A model generated the notes under the pieces. That model had not been told where the DNA came from. It did not search any database and was given only the letters and a program-made list of their open reading frames with translations. From Acidobacteriota bacterium (lineage in GTDB: Bacteria > Acidobacteriota > Terriglobia > UBA7540), in assembly GCA_021789565.1 (NCBI GenBank), contig JAJYJL010000511.1:1-6355 (forward strand): a DNA stretch of 6,355 nucleotides, written 5' to 3'. The first letter of the stretch is position 1; every line of letters begins with the position of its first letter. The translations under genes and the position numbers were made by a program. Shown here piece by piece: positions 1 through 6,355 of this stretch.

Positions 1-650
1 TTGCAGCCTGCGTTATTTTTCTCGCCGGTTACCTGCCGAGTCTGTCTTTACTCCGGGCGGGGCAAATTGCTGCTGTTACAGACCAAAACGGCCAGATCGT
101 TTACGTCAACGCCAACTCGGCTCCTGCAGGCGTTCAGCCCGATTTTGCTTCCGACATCGGGCTTTTTGTCAGCCCGTCGAACATTGACTCGATCATTGAC
201 CGGGTCTCCAGCCATTATCAGGTGGACCCGAAACTGATCCATGCCATGATCCGCGTCGAATCCAACTACGACCCGTCGGCCGTTTCATCCAAAGGCGCAA
301 TGGGATTGATGCAGTTGATTCCATCCACAGCCCAGCGTTTCGGAGTGCAGAATCCCTTCGACCCCAACCAGAACATTCAAGGGGGCGTCAGCTACCTGAA
401 ATATCTATTGCATCTCTTTGGAGGGAACCTGCCGCTCTCGCTGGCCGCGTACAATGCGGGCGAGGAGAGGGTAATCCGTTCCGGGGGCATTCCGGACATC
501 CCCGAGACCGAGCATTATGTGCGGGCGATTACGCACATTTACCGCTCAAAGAACAGCGGCTCCGCCACTGCGGCGGCAGCAACACGGATTATGCCTATTG
601 TGCGGTACGTCGATTCGCAAGGGATCGTCCACTTTACCAACGCCGAGTGA
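1..650 (+). CDS. Secreted lytic transglycosylase, SLT domain (5' end outside window)
   Basis: Soluble-lytic-transglycosylase family enzyme that cleaves the MurNAc–GlcNAc bond of peptidoglycan in the periplasm, leaving 1,6-anhydroMurNAc ends. The frame is open from base 3, so 215 residues are visible and the start codon lies upstream; the GTG at 222 is internal. Visible residues 2–20 are hydrophobic (VIFLAGYLPSLSLL), consistent with the tail of a signal peptide, so few residues are probably missing. The SLT domain spans about residues 70–185. The catalytic Glu is in RVESNYDP (codon 258–260, residue 86), followed by GAMGLMQLIPSTA and the AAYNAGE motif near base 444. A DUF4124-like stretch (VTDQNGQIVYVN) precedes the domain and a similar one (VRYVDSQGIVHFTNAE) ends the protein. 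The amidase gene follows 90 bases downstream on the same strand, suggesting co-transcription. The family call is secure; the subfamily is not. Confidence 0.93.
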   Translation, partial: AACVIFLAGYLPSLSLLRAGQIAAVTDQNGQIVYVNANSAPAGVQPDFASDIGLFVSPSNIDSIIDRVSSHYQVDPKLIHAMIRVESNYDPSAVSSKGAMGLMQLIPSTAQRFGVQNPFDPNQNIQGGVSYLKYLLHLFGGNLPLSLAAYNAGEERVIRSGGIPDIPETEHYVRAITHIYRSKNSGSATAAAATRIMPIVRYVDSQGIVHFTNAE

Positions 651-676
651 AAGTGCGGCGATGGCTGGTGGCCAGG

Positions 677-699
677 GAACATGGTGAACTCACCTGTTC
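677..699 (+). other. Hairpin between the transglycosylase and amidase genes
   Basis: GAACA (677–681) and GGTG (683–686) pair with CACC (691–694) and TGTTC (695–699) around an AACT loop. This gives nine base pairs with a single bulged T at 682. No T-tract follows, so it is not an intrinsic terminator. It could be an intercistronic processing or stability element, or chance; no other evidence supports a role. Confidence 0.35.
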
Positions 700-725
700 A
701 TGGGGGCTAAAACAACGGCAGCAGC

Positions 726-731
726 AAGAGG
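726..731 (+). promoter_or_regulatory. Ribosome binding site for the amidase GTG start
   Basis: AAGAGG lies nine bases before the GTG at 741. It is a partial Shine-Dalgarno match. An in-frame TAA at 708–710 closes the frame upstream, which leaves 741 as the first usable start and the one that gives a complete signal peptide. Confidence 0.5.
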
Positions 732-740
732 CGACAAAAA

Positions 741-3104
741 GTGATTGCAAAGCGGACAGGATCGAGAAGCGCTATACTTGCTGGCATTTGTGTTTTCTTT
801 ATCGGCATCCCAGGTCTAGCTGTGACCCGGCACACGGCGCTTGCCCACAAAGCCTACCAGCACGCCGTTGAACTGCAGCAACAGCTCCAGGCCAGGCCCG
901 CCAAAGCGCGCACTGTTGCGGAGTATAAGCGTGTTATCACCGAGTTCCGCAACGTTTACTACTACGATTTTGCTTACGTCAAGGCCCCGGTTGCGGCCCA
1001 GGCCATGGGAGATCTTTACGCCGAAATGGGCCGCCAGTTTCGCGATCCCGTTTATTTCCAGGACGCTATCAAGGCCTACCGGTATGTGGTGTCGCAATAC
1101 CCCGGCACCAGCATGGCGCGCGAATCGGCGCTGGCCGTGGGCAAGATCTATCTCGATGACCTCAAAGATCCTGCGCAGGCGGGGAACGCATACCAGTCGT
1201 TCCTGACGAAGCACCCCAAATCACCAGACTCGGCCACGGCGCGGAAAGAACTGAAGGAAATCTCTGACATCGAGGCCGCGAAAAAGGAGCAGGAAGAACG
1301 CACGGCCAACGCCCCCGAAAGCACGGTCAACACCGCTGACGAGTCGGCCGCGGCACCCAGCGACGCCCGCAGTCGAGATAATAGCAACTCCGGCCGCCCA
1401 TCCGCCGGCGGACTGGCGGAAGTGACCAACATACACGACTGGGTGGGACCGAATTACACTCGAGTGGTCATCGAGGCGCAGGGATCCTTCAAGTACACCA
1501 CGCTGCGCCTTTCGCACCCGGACCGGATTGTCTTTGATCTGCCGAACACCCGATTGAGCCCGGCGCTGATCAGGAAAGGCATTACAATCAACGGGGCTTT
1601 TCTGCACGATATTCGTGCGGGCCAGTTCAAGCCAGATGTCACTCGAATCGTGCTCGACGTCAAGAACATCAACAGCTTTTCTGCGTTTCCGCTTCCGAAC
1701 CCTTTCCGGCTGATTATCGACGTGCGCGGGTCCTCTCCCGAGGTGGCAGAAAACACCCCGGACCGGGCGAACCATGCTTCACCCGCCTGGCATGGTCCCG
1801 TCGAGCAGACACCCGTTCAGAAGAATGCTCTGGCCTTGAAGCAGCCCGCTGCCGCGCGCACCATGCCGCAGATTAAGGCAGCCCGGCAAACAGAACCTCC
1901 TGTTCCACAATTTGCCGGTTCCGCCATTGTATTCGAAGACCAGAACGCCGCAAAAGCGGCAGCGGAGGCTGGTGCCACGAATAGCACGATGCAGGCCGGC
2001 AAGGGAAATCCTAAAGCGGCAACAGACAGGAGCGCTTTGGAATCTGCACCGCAGAGGCCCGAAGCCGCGCGCGACCGTCACATTCAGGAGCCTTCAAAGT
2101 CTGCGAACGAAATCGCCTCCAACCAAGGCGCCGAGCGGACGACAAAAGAGGCAACTGAGTCCGCTGCAAACACTCGCCCGCAGGAGGTACCAAAGACAAA
2201 GGTTGAATCAGCGTCCGCGCGCGAGACCCCGGTGGCTCTAAAGAATAAGACCGAGGTCGCCCATGTGCGTCACAGCGATAATGTTGCAAAACGCAAGATT
2301 GCGGCAGCCGGCAAGGATATCCCGCCGGAAGGATCCACATTCTCGACGCGGCCGGCATCTCCCATTGAGGATGGGGCGCAGACGCTCACCCGGGCCCTGG
2401 GTCTGAAGGTGGCCCGCATTGTCATTGACCCCGGCCATGGAGGTTTTGATACTGGAACCATCGGGCCCGCGGGTCTTGAAGAAAAGAACGTTGTGCTCGA
2501 TATCGCCCTGAGGCTGCGGAAACTCATTGAGACGCGAACCAACAGCGAGGTCTTTATGACCCGCAGCACCGACAAGTTCATTCCATTGGAAGAACGCACG
2601 GCCATCGCCAACGAAGACGGCGCGGACCTGTTCATTTCCATTCACGCCAACGCCAGCCGCGACCCTCACGTGCGCGGAATCGAAACTTACTTTCTGAACT
2701 TCACAAGTGATCCTGAAGCCTTGCAACTGGCCGCCCGTGAAAACGCGACATCGCAGGAATCCGTCCACCAGTTGCAGAATCTGATCAAAAAGATCGCCCT
2801 CAACAACAAGATTGAGGAATCACAGGAACTGGCGCACGACGTCCAGACCGTGCTCTATAGGCGCATGGCCCACATTTCCCCCGGCATCCACAACCGCGGC
2901 GTGCGCAAGGCCCCCTTCGTGGTCCTGATAGGGGCCAACATGCCCTCCATATTGACGGAAATCTCCTTCCTTTCGAACCCCCGGTCTGAGCGCCTTCTGC
3001 GACAGCCCAAGTACCGCGAAGACATCGCCAAAGCGATTTTCAGCGGCATTGAGGACTACATCAACAACCTGGGCAGTGTGCGCGTCGCGCAACGGACGCA
3101 CTGA
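741..3104 (+). CDS. N-acetylmuramoyl-L-alanine amidase, TPR–AMIN–Amidase_3 (AmiC-like)
   Basis: Periplasmic zinc amidase that removes the stem peptide from MurNAc, a reaction used in daughter-cell separation. It has 787 residues with a GTG start. Residues 1–28 form a signal peptide (basic MIAKRTGSR, then a hydrophobic core). Residues about 35–175 are TPR-like helices (KAYRYVVSQYPGT, AYQSFLTKHPKSP). Residues 227–330 form an AMIN domain, which in AmiC-type enzymes directs septal localisation. Residues 331–558 are an Ala/Glu/Lys-rich low-complexity linker. Residues 559 to about 780 are Amidase_3: zinc ligands His566 (DPGHGG), Glu581 (LEEKN) and His635 (SIHAN), and catalytic Glu740 (LTEISFLSN). 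Between His635 and Glu740 an extra segment (about 653–715) matches the place where AmiB/AmiC carry an autoinhibitory helix released by LytM-type activators; regulation here is inferred. It is far longer than the roughly 400-residue E. coli enzymes because of the TPR and linker. Confidence 0.95.
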   Translation: MIAKRTGSRSAILAGICVFFIGIPGLAVTRHTALAHKAYQHAVELQQQLQARPAKARTVAEYKRVITEFRNVYYYDFAYVKAPVAAQAMGDLYAEMGRQFRDPVYFQDAIKAYRYVVSQYPGTSMARESALAVGKIYLDDLKDPAQAGNAYQSFLTKHPKSPDSATARKELKEISDIEAAKKEQEERTANAPESTVNTADESAAAPSDARSRDNSNSGRPSAGGLAEVTNIHDWVGPNYTRVVIEAQGSFKYTTLRLSHPDRIVFDLPNTRLSPALIRKGITINGAFLHDIRAGQFKPDVTRIVLDVKNINSFSAFPLPNPFRLIIDVRGSSPEVAENTPDRANHASPAWHGPVEQTPVQKNALALKQPAAARTMPQIKAARQTEPPVPQFAGSAIVFEDQNAAKAAAEAGATNSTMQAGKGNPKAATDRSALESAPQRPEAARDRHIQEPSKSANEIASNQGAERTTKEATESAANTRPQEVPKTKVESASARETPVALKNKTEVAHVRHSDNVAKRKIAAAGKDIPPEGSTFSTRPASPIEDGAQTLTRALGLKVARIVIDPGHGGFDTGTIGPAGLEEKNVVLDIALRLRKLIETRTNSEVFMTRSTDKFIPLEERTAIANEDGADLFISIHANASRDPHVRGIETYFLNFTSDPEALQLAARENATSQESVHQLQNLIKKIALNNKIEESQELAHDVQTVLYRRMAHISPGIHNRGVRKAPFVVLIGANMPSILTEISFLSNPRSERLLRQPKYREDIAKAIFSGIEDYINNLGSVRVAQRTH

Positions 3105-3233
3105 CCTGTCGACACGCCCGGTCCGAATGCAGCGTCAGATCGACTGTGCCGCGCAACCTGTGGACCTGTTTCCGCCCTTGAGCAGCAAGGCTGATCCTTT
3201 ACTGCACGCCCGGGGACTTCCAAGTCGAATTTC

Positions 3234-3242
3234 TGCTATGCT
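3234..3242 (+). promoter_or_regulatory. Possible extended -10 promoter before the secreted hypothetical gene
   Basis: TGCTATGCT matches the extended -10 form TGn-TATAAT (hexamer TATGCT at 3237–3242, four of six). No convincing -35 is seen around 3214, which is tolerated by extended -10 promoters. A start of transcription about seven bases on (near 3249) would almost coincide with the ATG at 3251. The rest of the 146-base gap (3105–3250) shows no gene and no clear terminator for the amidase. Confidence 0.35.
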
Positions 3243-3250
3243 AAGGATGG

Positions 3251-4333
3251 ATGAAGTTCATCACCCTCCTCAGCATAACGTTCTGGGGCCTTCTTGCCTC
3301 GAGCGCACCGCTCGCCGGCTTTCAGCACACGACCATTGTGAACCTGGCCACTCTTCCTAAATGGCAGGTGCAAAAAGACCAGAAAGTCAGCCTGAACGAC
3401 GTTCGCCAATGGGGAGTGCAACCGGACATTGATCTGGAGTACGGTGTGACAAAGGCGGAAGTGCGCACCTACGTCCAGGATAACCAGACCCTCGAAGCCC
3501 TCTTGGAAAAGGCGGCCGATCCTTCTTCTGCATACGGATTGCTGACCTTCTACCAGGATGAATCGATGAGGCCGGCAAAGGCGATGAGGCTTGCTGTCCT
3601 AGGACCCACACAGGCCTTGATGGCTCGTGGCGCATTCTTTGTCCGCGTGATGCGCCCCGCCAAAATGTCAGAAGAGGATTTTCGCTCGGCATTAATCGCG
3701 ATCGCCGGAGCATCCCCCTCGGCTGATACCATGGCGCTGTTACCCCCGTCGCTCCCCGTAAAAGGAATCGTCCCGTGCTCGGAAAAATATGTCCTGGGCC
3801 CGATAGCCCTGCACCAGGCCATTCCCTCGCTGCCCGCAGGATTGGTGGGATTCCGCCAAGGCGCGGAGGTCCAGTCGGCTGAATATCAAATCAATGGCCA
3901 GCGCCTGACGCTGACTTTTATCAGCTACCCCACCTATTCCATCGCACGGGAGCGGTACGCCGGCTTGGAACAAGGTCTGAACATCAATCAGAAAACGGGG
4001 GCAGGCACAATTTATGGGAAGCTGTTAAAAAGCTATGTTTTACTGGTTCAAGGCGCTCAATCAAAAGAGGTTGCAGGAAATCTTATGGGCCAACTGACTG
4101 TCCAACAGGTGGTCAGTTGGGATCAGCCGCCTCCTGGCAAGCCGGTGACCGTGCAGATGTTCCAGTTAATCGTTGGAAACATCATACTGGTTACCTTGCT
4201 TGTAGGACTGGCCTTTCTTGGGGGTGTTCTTCTCTTCGTTTCCCGCATAGTGGCAGGCCGATTGTTCCCGCAATCAGACTGGGCCCGCGGGTATGAAGAC
4301 TCCATCATCCGTTTGAACCTGAAACGATACTAA
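3251..4333 (+). CDS. Exported, C-terminally membrane-anchored protein of unknown function (DUF6599-like)
   Basis: 360 residues. Residues 1–23 look like a signal peptide (MKFITLLSITFWGLLASSAPLAG). Residues about 24–299 would then be extracytoplasmic, and residues about 306–330 form one strong hydrophobic helix followed by a basic tail, so the protein is probably held in the inner membrane with its bulk in the periplasm. Motifs include EYGVTKAEVRTYV, SSAYGLLTFYQ, RGAFFVRVMRP, SEKYVLGPIAL, LVGFRQGAEVQSAEY and LTLTFISYPTYSIARERY. From memory this resembles the DUF6599 proteins common in Acidobacteriota; I cannot verify that without a profile search. No catalytic motif is recognisable. An in-frame TAA at 3242–3244 makes 3251 the first start. 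The only SD-like run, AAGGA at 3243–3247, is unusually close (three bases). There may be a separate promoter at 3234–3242. Confidence 0.85.
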   Translation: MKFITLLSITFWGLLASSAPLAGFQHTTIVNLATLPKWQVQKDQKVSLNDVRQWGVQPDIDLEYGVTKAEVRTYVQDNQTLEALLEKAADPSSAYGLLTFYQDESMRPAKAMRLAVLGPTQALMARGAFFVRVMRPAKMSEEDFRSALIAIAGASPSADTMALLPPSLPVKGIVPCSEKYVLGPIALHQAIPSLPAGLVGFRQGAEVQSAEYQINGQRLTLTFISYPTYSIARERYAGLEQGLNINQKTGAGTIYGKLLKSYVLLVQGAQSKEVAGNLMGQLTVQQVVSWDQPPPGKPVTVQMFQLIVGNIILVTLLVGLAFLGGVLLFVSRIVAGRLFPQSDWARGYEDSIIRLNLKRY

Positions 4334-4445
4334 ACCTAACCAAAAAGGGAGCTTAAGGGCCAAATGCGGATTTTTACGGCCGGACTTAGGAAATTTTTCA
4401 GAGTTTTCGCCGAAAGTGCTGCCGATTTAAGTAACTGCAAATAAA

Positions 4446-4459
4446 TGACTTATATGTCA
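4446..4459. promoter_or_regulatory. Inverted repeat upstream of the putative sRNA promoter
   Basis: TGACTTATATGTCA is a 14-base palindrome with one mismatched pair (T/T). It ends 20 bases before the -35 hexamer, a position where an activator or repressor could bind. It is short enough to be chance in AT-rich DNA, so its function is only a suggestion. Confidence 0.25.
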
Positions 4460-4509
4460 AATTTTTCCTTAAAAATTGCTTGACACAGCCGCCTGGTTTT
4501 CATTAAACT
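4460..4509 (+). promoter_or_regulatory. Sigma70-type promoter with UP-like element
   Basis: An AT-only flank, AATTTTT (4460–4466) facing AAAAATT (4471–4477), sits directly before a perfect -35 TTGACA (4480–4485). An 18-base spacer leads to TAAACT (4504–4509), which matches four of six -10 positions. Transcription would start near 4516. It is the best housekeeping promoter I see in the window, and it points at the short RNA unit rather than at any protein gene. Confidence 0.65.
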
Positions 4510-4515
4510 CCAACC

Positions 4516-4626
4516 GAGTTTAGATGGCGGAGCGCGTCCGCTATTCTATTCTCCTCTCAAAAAAATGCTCACCCGCAGGTCCGGGGGACCATTTTCTCCG
4601 CTGTCGGGTGAGCATTTTCTTTTTTT
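4516..4626 (+). ncRNA. Candidate small RNA of about 110 nt, family unknown
   Basis: The unit runs from the predicted start of the promoter above to the T-tract of the terminator. It has three parts. First is a 5' stem-loop, 4523–4531 with 4537–4545, nine pairs including two G·U, with a core GCGGA/TCCGC around GCGCG. Second is an unpaired pyrimidine-rich run (4546–4558) containing CTCCTCTC, which resembles the anti-Shine-Dalgarno sequence and could pair with ribosome binding sites. Third is a long terminator hairpin. No reading frame of any length fits inside. A stem-loop, an open CU-rich seed and an intrinsic terminator is a common layout for trans-acting sRNAs. I do not recognise the family. 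The alternative is a bare terminator for the upstream gene with a chance promoter. Confidence 0.5.
4562..4626 (+). terminator. Strong intrinsic terminator, possibly bidirectional
   Basis: AAAATGCTCACCCG (4562–4575) is perfectly complementary to CGGGTGAGCATTTT (4605–4618), giving 14 pairs. CAG (4576–4578) can add three pairs with CTG (4601–4603) past a bulged T. The loop holds a second small hairpin, GTCC (4579–4582) with GGAC (4586–4589). Seven T (4620–4626) follow the stem. Seven A (4559–4565) precede or overlap it, so the - strand also reads as a hairpin plus T-tract. It would end the candidate sRNA and could also stop read-through from the gene ending at 4333, which has no closer terminator. 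Confidence 0.85.
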
Positions 4627-4998
4627 GCAAGTTCACCGCCCGGCTTTGCAAAACCTGTATATACAATGCTCAAAGCTTGTAACTGATTGATATAAAAAAA
4701 TTGCTTATAGCTAAGTGGCGGGCGGGTTCGGGCTGATACAGCATTTTCAGCCAGTGTGCAAACGCAACACTTGAACATCTGGCAAGCTGTCAGGTACGAT
4801 ATTCAGGAAGGTCAATCAGGCCGATCACCGAAGTTTGTAAAGCATTGTGGTGCGGACAAGCCCTTCAGTCAGTCTGTGTCGCGGAAGGTCCTTCAGGCTT
4901 CTTCAAGAAGCAGCTTCTGGTATCGTACACAGGCAGTGATGTTGGCGGGTCGCTACCATTAGTCACACGAAAAGAAGTAACGGCATTTCCTTTATTCG
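4627..4998. other. Intergenic stretch with no supported gene
   Basis: Between the terminator and the tRNA there are 372 bases without a convincing gene. The one open frame of note (4756–4962, 68 codons) has no ribosome binding site, no domain-like sequence and composition unlike the neighbours. Small palindromes occur: GGCTGA/TCAGCC (4731–4736 with 4747–4752), GAAGGTCCTTC (4884–4894) and GCTTC/GAAGC (4897–4901 with 4907–4911). None is followed by a T-tract. No clear promoter for the tRNA was found. Confidence 0.6.
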
Positions 4999-5074
<76 letters not shown>

Positions 5075-5185
5075 CTTTTTTCCAGACCGACATTCGTTTC
5101 CAACCACACGTTCGAGCGTAGACTTGAACAGGCAGTTGAGGGCAATCTGCCGCTGCAGGCGACCCGGGTGGTCAGGGCATTAGTG

Positions 5186-5206
5186 AAAAAGCCCGGAAGG
5201 GTCCTT
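5186..5206 (-). terminator. Intrinsic terminator of the haem-copper oxidase gene
   Basis: Read on the - strand, AAGGACCC pairs with GGGCTTT around a TTCC loop, giving seven pairs with one bulged A, and the 3' arm runs into TTTTT. It begins inside the TGA stop codon of the oxidase gene, so coding sequence and terminator overlap. The stem is short, hence moderate confidence. Confidence 0.5.
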
Positions 5207-6355
5207 CACAGAATGTACGACACGAGTAACCCTTCTCTGAACTGCGTCCAGAATATCTTCAGATAACGCCGTCCGGTTACCCATAGGAACAGCAGCAAGC
5301 CCACTACAAATATTCCAATAAATACTGAACTGACGCGGGCATCGTGTGTTCCCCAGTAGAGTTCCTGAGGGTAGATCGCAAAGCGGCGAGGAATGGAGTG
5401 GGCTCCGGCCCAGAAGAACATCAGAACGAATCCGTAACCGCCAATCAGAAAAAGCGTCACCATCGCGCGGCGCGCAGCCCTGCTGTCGGGCATGCCGCTC
5501 AATTCCACGGCCAGGTGGCTGGCGAAACCCATCACCATCAAAACAACGCCCATCAGATAATAAGTGTGGAAGTGTGCCGGGACCCAGAGTGTGTTGTGGA
5601 AAAAGTAATTGAGTGAAATCGTAGAATCGATCACTGCCCCCACTCCACCCACGGCCCAGCCCATAAGTCCCAGGAACATGAATGTCGAGGCAATCGTCCA
5701 ACGCATGCGCGAACCGTAAACCACCAGGAGGCCGTCAAAGATGGACACCACGGCCGCGGGTACAGCGCTGAGGTATGACATCATCTGACCCATCAACTGG
5801 AGCATCCTCGGCTCGACAAAATCCATGTAAAGGTGGTGGAAGTAGGCAAAAAACACCATTGCCAGAACCATGTTCCAGGCCAGCGCGATAATCCGGTTCG
5901 TTTTCCATGAGCGGTTGCTAAACCGGGGTAGCATTTCATAGACAGTGGCCACTCCCAAGTACATCGTCGCGTGCACCATCATGTGGCCAAAGAAAAACGT
6001 CAGGTTTTTCATCAGCAGCGCATCGGCAACAAAGCCTTTCACTCGCCACTGCATAAAGTAATAGGCGAAAACAGCAAAAGCATCTGTAAAGCCTAATATA
6101 CCGATGATCAAGGCCGCAAAAGCGATAAGAACCAGCGGAGGAACCTCGGGTCCGGCCTTCCTTGCCTTTTGGGTCAGGTAATGCCAGCCAAGCGCATGAT
6201 GCAGCCGGTAACGTCGCAGGATCGCAGTGATCATGGCCAGTGACCAAATCAGCCAGATTGCGCTCATCAGCACAATCGAAGCAAAGAAGCATCCCGTGGC
6301 CCACGGGGGCCAGGTACCCTGTGAGTAAAACGGCAGAGGATAAAGAAAGTACCAC
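5206..6355 (-). CDS. B-family haem-copper oxidoreductase subunit I, atypical active site (5' end outside window)
   Basis: Catalytic membrane subunit of a terminal oxidase or NO reductase. The frame stays open to the window edge (first visible residues WYFLYPLPFYSQG), so 382 residues covering helices IV–XII are seen; the GTG at 6273 is internal. Aligned from memory to Thermus ba3 oxidase, the CuB-site histidines are His124 (FFFGHMMVH, helix VI) and His173/His174 (YFHHLY, helix VII). The haem ligands are His261 and His263 (NTLWVPAHFHTYY, helix X). WAGAHSIPRR in helix XI also fits the family. Helices I–III, with the second low-spin haem ligand, are off the edge. The cross-linked Tyr of O2 reductases (GHPxVY) is His128 here. 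Positions matching ba3 Ser309 and Thr312 are Ala and Val, and Asp372 is Asn. Subunit II, if present, should lie upstream on the - strand beyond base 6355. An NO reductase-like role is plausible but unproven. Confidence 0.92.
   Translation of the reverse strand, partial: WYFLYPLPFYSQGTWPPWATGCFFASIVLMSAIWLIWSLAMITAILRRYRLHHALGWHYLTQKARKAGPEVPPLVLIAFAALIIGILGFTDAFAVFAYYFMQWRVKGFVADALLMKNLTFFFGHMMVHATMYLGVATVYEMLPRFSNRSWKTNRIIALAWNMVLAMVFFAYFHHLYMDFVEPRMLQLMGQMMSYLSAVPAAVVSIFDGLLVVYGSRMRWTIASTFMFLGLMGWAVGGVGAVIDSTISLNYFFHNTLWVPAHFHTYYLMGVVLMVMGFASHLAVELSGMPDSRAARRAMVTLFLIGGYGFVLMFFWAGAHSIPRRFAIYPQELYWGTHDARVSSVFIGIFVVGLLLFLWVTGRRYLKIFWTQFREGLLVSYIL

Follow-up and report, generated by a model that had tools for sequence, protein, structure and literature searches.

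Gene content of the locus and residues of the active site

The window (the whole stretch of DNA analysed, 6,355 nucleotides on contig JAJYJL010000511.1 of an Acidobacteriota bacterium) ends inside a gene for subunit I of the haem-copper oxidase superfamily. On the minus strand the reading frame is uninterrupted over 382 codons (5206-6354) and continues past the window end, so that the last 382 residues are encoded here and the 5' part of the gene lies beyond (Table 1).

Table 1. Features of the window and Cyc2-like genes of two related loci
Feature	Position	Strand	Evidence or remark
Region past the subunit I stop, without SCO gene, unlike N-type loci	1..5205		Own SCO profile, best E 1.5, chance level
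SLT lytic transglycosylase	3-650	+	No link to the subunit I finding seen
AMIN/Amidase_3 amidase	741-3104	+	No link to the subunit I finding seen
DUF6599 protein	3251-4333	+	No link to the subunit I finding seen
tRNA-Thr(CGT)	4999-5074	+	No link to the subunit I finding seen
Haem-copper oxidase superfamily subunit I gene, 3' part, 382 codons	5206..6354	-	Open frame; Pfam COX1
Helix X H261-F262-H263, haem ligands	5566..5574	-	HNTLWVPAHFH vs ba3 HNTAWVPGHFH; tree alignment columns hb3, hb
Helix VII pair H173-H174, remaining two CuB ligands	5833..5838	-	FHHLYMD vs ba3 FHHQFAD; tree alignment columns VIIa, VIIb
Helix VI motif GHMMVH, residues 123-128	5971..5988	-	Translation; alignment to Thermus ba3; H-type/N-type counts
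Cyc2-like fused cytochrome-porin, 455 aa	L094 4843-6210		Upstream of CuA and subunit I genes
Cyc2-like fused cytochrome-porin, 452 aa	L001 6669-8027		Upstream of CuA and subunit I genes

Pfam COX1 matches the window protein (E 6.9e-35), which has the COX1 fold together with the haem and CuB histidines of the superfamily; the full-length representative P0001 (524 aa) is 97% identical to it. The original prediction had read a helix VI motif GHMMVH in which the CuB histidine is kept and the cross-linked tyrosine is missing. All of this was borne out: the codons of H124 (5983-5985) and H128 (5971-5973) lie exactly as predicted, GHMMVH pairs with GHPIVY of Thermus ba3 in a phmmer alignment, H124 falls on the ba3 CuB ligand, and H128 occupies the site of the tyrosine that is cross-linked in A- and B-family oxidases. 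The other ligands that fall inside the window are all kept.

With His four residues past the helix VI CuB histidine (+4), the window protein has neither the Tyr of A/B-family O2 reductases nor the Glu of cNOR/qNOR, the Gln of eNOR or the Asp of gNOR, a group without a reference in our tree, and the Asn of the Asn-type NO reductases (sNOR; perhaps nNOR) is likewise missing from proteins with His at this site (H-type). In cbb3 oxidases (C family), the cross-link Tyr sits six residues ahead of the paired histidines of helix VII (-6); the window has Val there, and a cbb3-type Tyr on helix VII was rejected on this ground. The cbb3 cross-link Tyr is described as coming from a separate helix (PMC8780969). 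Among published NO reductases, E, Q, D or N are reported in place of Tyr (PMC3475470, PMC8756737).

Residue at +4, phylogeny and altered CuB sites

An alignment of the window with 120 listed of 1630 homologues (121 rows) has Asn at +4 in 99 rows, His in 15 (the window and 14 listed proteins), Tyr in four and Leu in three. Because the same His recurs in 15 of the 121 rows, a one-off sequencing error can be discounted, and since Asn is the usual +4 residue of the family, the change in this lineage was Asn to His; the predicted replacement of Tyr by His holds for the site but not for the descent. In the tree set, +4 is His in 15/15 H-type rows and Asn in 81/82 N-type and 11/11 Ruegeria-type rows. 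The sole non-Asn row of the N-type (L068, genome G061) carries Glu, as in cNOR/qNOR, and keeps all other ligands. Two further sites differ in the H-type: residue 253 of P0001 is changed from Asp to Asn in 14/15 rows and residue 456 from Tyr to Phe in 15/15.

Two trees were calculated. For the 128-row tree, P0035-P0060 were thinned to every fourth protein, P0061-P0120 were not used and 11 of 120 Ruegeria-type proteins were taken; short, split or poor sequences (L009, L042, L046, L056, L058, L061, L070, L071, L074) and duplicate loci were left out, and the root was placed on seven Gln-type and two ba3-like rows, nine in total, on long branches. The window falls into a mainly acidobacterial clade of 24 rows (SH-aLRT 100) deep within the Asn-type family, and the clade is nested among N-type rows in a tree calculated without published nNOR, gNOR or bNOR references. 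In the second tree, with 55 hand-picked rows and the seven ligand columns removed, the clade survives with 22 rows and support of 100/100. The seven Gln-type and two Tyr-type rows from the same genomes are separated in the 128-row tree by a branch with SH-aLRT 100; as the Gln-type rows lie apart across this branch, an eNOR identity was rejected.

The 55-row tree needs a minimum of three changes at +4, read as a single Asn-to-His step after which this His gave way to Tyr and to Leu, and it places the one origin of His at the clade base. H-type rows show no loss in any of the six ligand columns that they cover, and the CuB triad is broken twice within the clade. In P0015, P0016, P0018 and P0025, the last being the gene of locus L001, the helix VI His is changed to Gln, +4 is Tyr and the first His of the helix VII pair is Asn (QYN). 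P0022 has Gln for the second His of the helix VII pair and Leu at +4, P0026 has CuB ligands changed to Asp and Gln and also Leu at +4, and P0017 combines an intact triad with Leu at +4 and a change of the haem ligand H403 to Tyr. Because the forks at the clade base are poorly resolved, the sequence of these losses is not fixed. The stem branch of the clade is long (0.39 changes per column in the 55-row tree). Within the clade, dN/dS is about 0.09-0.15 in three pairs, a rough estimate with dS near saturation (dN and dS 0.18/2.03 for window-L094, 0.25/1.64 for window-L001 and 0.25/1.93 for L094-L001), and about 0.13-0.15 in the pairs that include the QYN gene of L001. These ratios indicate that purifying selection persists in the clade, including the CuB-broken gene of L001. 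One scan of viral contigs found no relative.

Gene neighbourhood and genome setting

Since subunit I runs off the window end, upstream genes were read in relatives; the H-type context comes from one genome (locus L094, genome G476) and the QYN context from another (locus L001, genome G001). Genome searches gave matches in 10/396, 7/399, 12/162 and 2/40 genomes, and G476 is the only H-type genome row from these searches in the trees. Using our own CuA and SCO profiles on 60 loci (L001-L060), a CuA subunit II gene was found to adjoin subunit I in 59, each with the C-x-E-x-C...H..M motif; the exception, L046, begins inside subunit I. It also lies beside subunit I in L072, L073 and L094, and the CuA-ligand motif is retained in subunit II of both L094 and L001, so the CuA or cupredoxin subunit that the original prediction proposed to look for next door is present in relatives. 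At several loci (L019, L023, L026 and others), subunit II has a cytochrome c domain joined to the N-terminal side of its CuA domain.

An SCO profile match within 6 kb on the same strand is present in 58/60 loci, the misses being L058 (contig end) and L001, and SCO stands beside all 54 N-type loci of the tree. The same profile found no SCO gene in the 10 kb downstream at the QYN locus L001, in the 5.9 kb downstream at the H-type locus L094 or in the 5.2 kb after the stop in the window. There was likewise no SCO match in T. roseum (L073), in whose record an assembly protein is annotated close by. Copper may still be supplied, since G476 and G001 carry SCO genes elsewhere in the genome.

Upstream, L094 encodes a MarR-like regulator, a Cyc2-like protein, a cupredoxin-like protein, a multihaem protein, a cytochrome c, CuA subunit II and subunit I, in this order; L001 holds Cyc2-like, cupredoxin-like, cytochrome c, CuA and subunit I genes, and the order is alike in the two genomes. 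A Cyc2 was taken to have AXPXFAR[Q/K][T/Y] ahead of a lone CXXCH and PXL behind it, to be at least some 400 residues long and to form a 16-strand porin; the first motif has been called unique to Cyc2, for which a 16-strand porin is described (PMC8406198). The Cyc2-like protein of L094 and L001 reads AITSFARQT-GLP-CSSCH, with Thr for Pro, followed by PEL; some of its homologues read AVPSFARQT. Its low-confidence model (mean pLDDT 55.8) has 16 predicted strands and porins as best matches. The term cupredoxin-like was assigned from an H..C..H..M pattern in a protein for which Pfam finds only a C-terminal regulatory-like domain.

Among 114 loci searched, a set with many short or duplicate members, FARQT before CxxCH occurs only in L094 and L001; upstream sequence of at least 5 kb is available for 42 of the 54 N-type loci. 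Elsewhere, L013 and L046 gave weak Cyc2-like matches that lack the motif, and one cupredoxin-like match came from L016. When 59 of 120 listed subunit I proteins were compared with 119 of 120 Cyc2-like ones by equal-sized contigs, a Cyc2-like protein was assigned to the contig of six (0.05 expected for contigs >5 kb): those of L094 and L001, which were read directly, P0014 (H-type), P0016 and P0018 (QYN) and P0028. The contig of P0016 measures 2.7 Mb, so that sharing it does not imply proximity, and an exclusive link of the Cyc2-like protein to the clade is weakened because P0028 is N-type. Since the Cyc2-like family is large (6027 matches) and the function of distant Cyc2 homologues has been termed unverified (PMC8406198), Fe(II) use is not inferable from these genes.

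Regarding the wider genome setting, 22 family genomes contain NosZ above the cut-off in eight and NirK in three, and match the NirS model at E <1e-100 in two and weakly in 14 more. The H-type genome G476 gave no NirK match, no NosZ above the cut-off and, for the NirS model, nothing beyond weak partial matches (best E 1.6e-8, above Pfam's low cut-off). Labelled by motif, this genome further encodes an aa3 enzyme of A2-like type (YSHPAVY) and a qNOR-like protein (VHLWVE), and G001 carries a separate aa3 gene with YSHPAVY besides its QYN gene. A frequent companion of the Asn-type gene in the same genome is an eNOR-like one that carries Gln at +4 (GHSSQQ); by motif it accounts for 7 of 20 haem-copper genes fetched (L095-L098, L104, L105, L112).

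Known relatives and possible function

The homologue from R. pomeroyi, with 37% identity to the window-type protein, has Asn at +4 and is surrounded by genes for Rrf2, a CuA subunit, SCO, a formate/nitrite transporter and a cytochrome c, an operon in line with the sNOR of the literature, which has Asn (PMC8756737 Table A4; PMC3475470). The sNOR label follows this Table A4, with the genus given as Silicibacter (PMC8756737), and NO reduction by sNOR is itself a published inference. Like sNOR (norSY-senC; Silicibacter, now Ruegeria, pomeroyi), the clade has a CuA subunit II beside subunit I, as read in L094 and L001, and in its H-type the six ligand histidines; unlike it, the clade carries His for Asn at +4, lacks the SCO neighbour and in relatives has the Cyc2-like cluster upstream. 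By description, the Type II qCuANOR of Bacillus/Geobacillus (cbaA2B2) is similar in having a short subunit I (about 490 residues), a CuA subunit and descent from the Asn type, and shares the SenC neighbour with the parent family of the clade (PMC3475470); the clade itself differs by His at +4 and by the missing SenC/SCO neighbour.

The predicted kinship with Tyr-less NO reductases is upheld by the nesting of the clade in the Asn-type family, close to the R. pomeroyi homologue. Membership of the eNOR, gNOR or sNOR groups had been offered alongside a further variant; the latter is the better half of this claim because the protein descends from the Asn-type family and is neither eNOR-like (Gln) nor cNOR/qNOR-like (Glu). 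The two CuB-ligand losses in sister proteins, the missing SCO neighbour and the Cyc2-like cluster upstream in relatives had no counterpart in the original prediction. Murali et al. reportedly treated sNOR, gNOR and nNOR, and their nNOR may be the very family that holds the clade, likened here by description alone. The nNOR group has been proposed as a set of NORs that lack the Tyr and are akin to B-family oxidases (PMC11388526).

We tentatively favour, with slightly less than even confidence, a CuA-fed and remodelled enzyme of Asn-type (sNOR/nNOR-like) NO-reductase stock in which Asn at +4 was replaced by His and whose most likely reaction would be NO reduction. Electrons would come from an outer-membrane donor, possibly extracellular, and pass via cupredoxin and periplasmic cytochrome c to CuA and then via haem b to the haem b3/metal site without cross-linked Tyr, where NO would most likely be reduced to N2O; the outer-membrane feed applies only perhaps. 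His128, in place of the ancestral Asn, might donate protons or might bind CuB/FeB as its fourth imidazole. This reading is supported by the intact ligand columns of the H-type, the position inside the Asn-type family, the single and then fixed change from Asn to His, the CuA motif kept in L094 and L001, the sNOR-like operon of R. pomeroyi with Asn, the variety of residues that replace Tyr in published NORs and the low dN/dS. It is weakened because two sub-branches broke the CuB triad, the SCO neighbour is missing, G476 already has a qNOR-like gene and no clear denitrification partners, and the clade lacks the marker Asn of a family whose NO reduction is a published inference for sNOR.

A functional shift is a serious, although less probable, rival in view of the CuB-eroded sisters, the loss of the SCO neighbour and the absence of clear denitrification partners from G476: the clade would have left NO reduction, its binuclear site being dismantled while the complex, fed by the Cyc2-like chain, persists as a haem-based sensor, a redox module or a reductase acting on another substrate, with the H-type as its least eroded form. 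The triad was broken twice while CuA and most haem ligands stay, the stem is long and the pairs with the QYN gene of L001 remain under constraint. However, no ligand is lost in the type to which the window belongs, nothing points to a different substrate, and an altered ligand set need not end NO chemistry because some NORs are reported to have Asp for one CuB/FeB His (PMC3475470). Somewhat more doubtful is a version in which the lineage gave up both O2 and NO chemistry and the CuB site was dismantled stepwise under selection, first by the change from Asn to His and then by breakage of the His triad on two branches, leaving a Cyc2-like-fed haem-based terminal or relay enzyme for another substrate.

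We consider it improbable that the protein is an O2 reductase without cross-linked Tyr at the end of an iron-oxidation-like chain, in spite of the resemblance of the cluster to the Acidithiobacillus rus operon (Cyc2-Cyc1-CoxBACD-Cup-Rus, with rusticyanin), which likewise combines Cyc2-like, cupredoxin-like, cytochrome c and CuA/haem-copper genes; the rus terminal enzyme is an aa3 O2 reductase (PMC10654088), whereas the clade enzyme is Tyr-less and its Fe(II) use putative. The QYN branch did regain Tyr at +4, but together with two changed CuB ligands, and G476 and G001 each possess their separate aa3 gene. The H-type itself offers Tyr neither at +4 nor, following the geometry of cbb3, at -6 of the helix VII pair. 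That the gene is decaying and has no function is very improbable: the gene is seen only in part, at the window end, and relatives have lost metal ligands, but the frame is open throughout the window, the same His is found in 14 listed proteins, dN/dS is low, if rough, and the gene order is similar in two genomes.

Turning back to the tentatively favoured NO-reducing enzyme, the +4 residue serves to separate O2 reductases from NO reductases, with Y, E, Q, D and N given at this site in the published lists cited here (PMC8756737, PMC3475470), and among the titles and abstract openings listed on nNOR, CuB ligands, hNOR and Cyc2, none describes a His-type or CuB-eroded member. The novelty is not complete because Asp for one CuB/FeB His is already reported in some NORs (PMC3475470). 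The clade with fixed His and its CuB-altered, CuA-keeping sisters form a natural series for the site requirements of NO or O2 chemistry. Annotation sources name such genes cytochrome c oxidase, and because of this, soil respiration and N2O potential could be misread. Furthermore, the Cyc2-like neighbours tie the enzyme of this clade to a possible extracellular electron uptake in Acidobacteriota.
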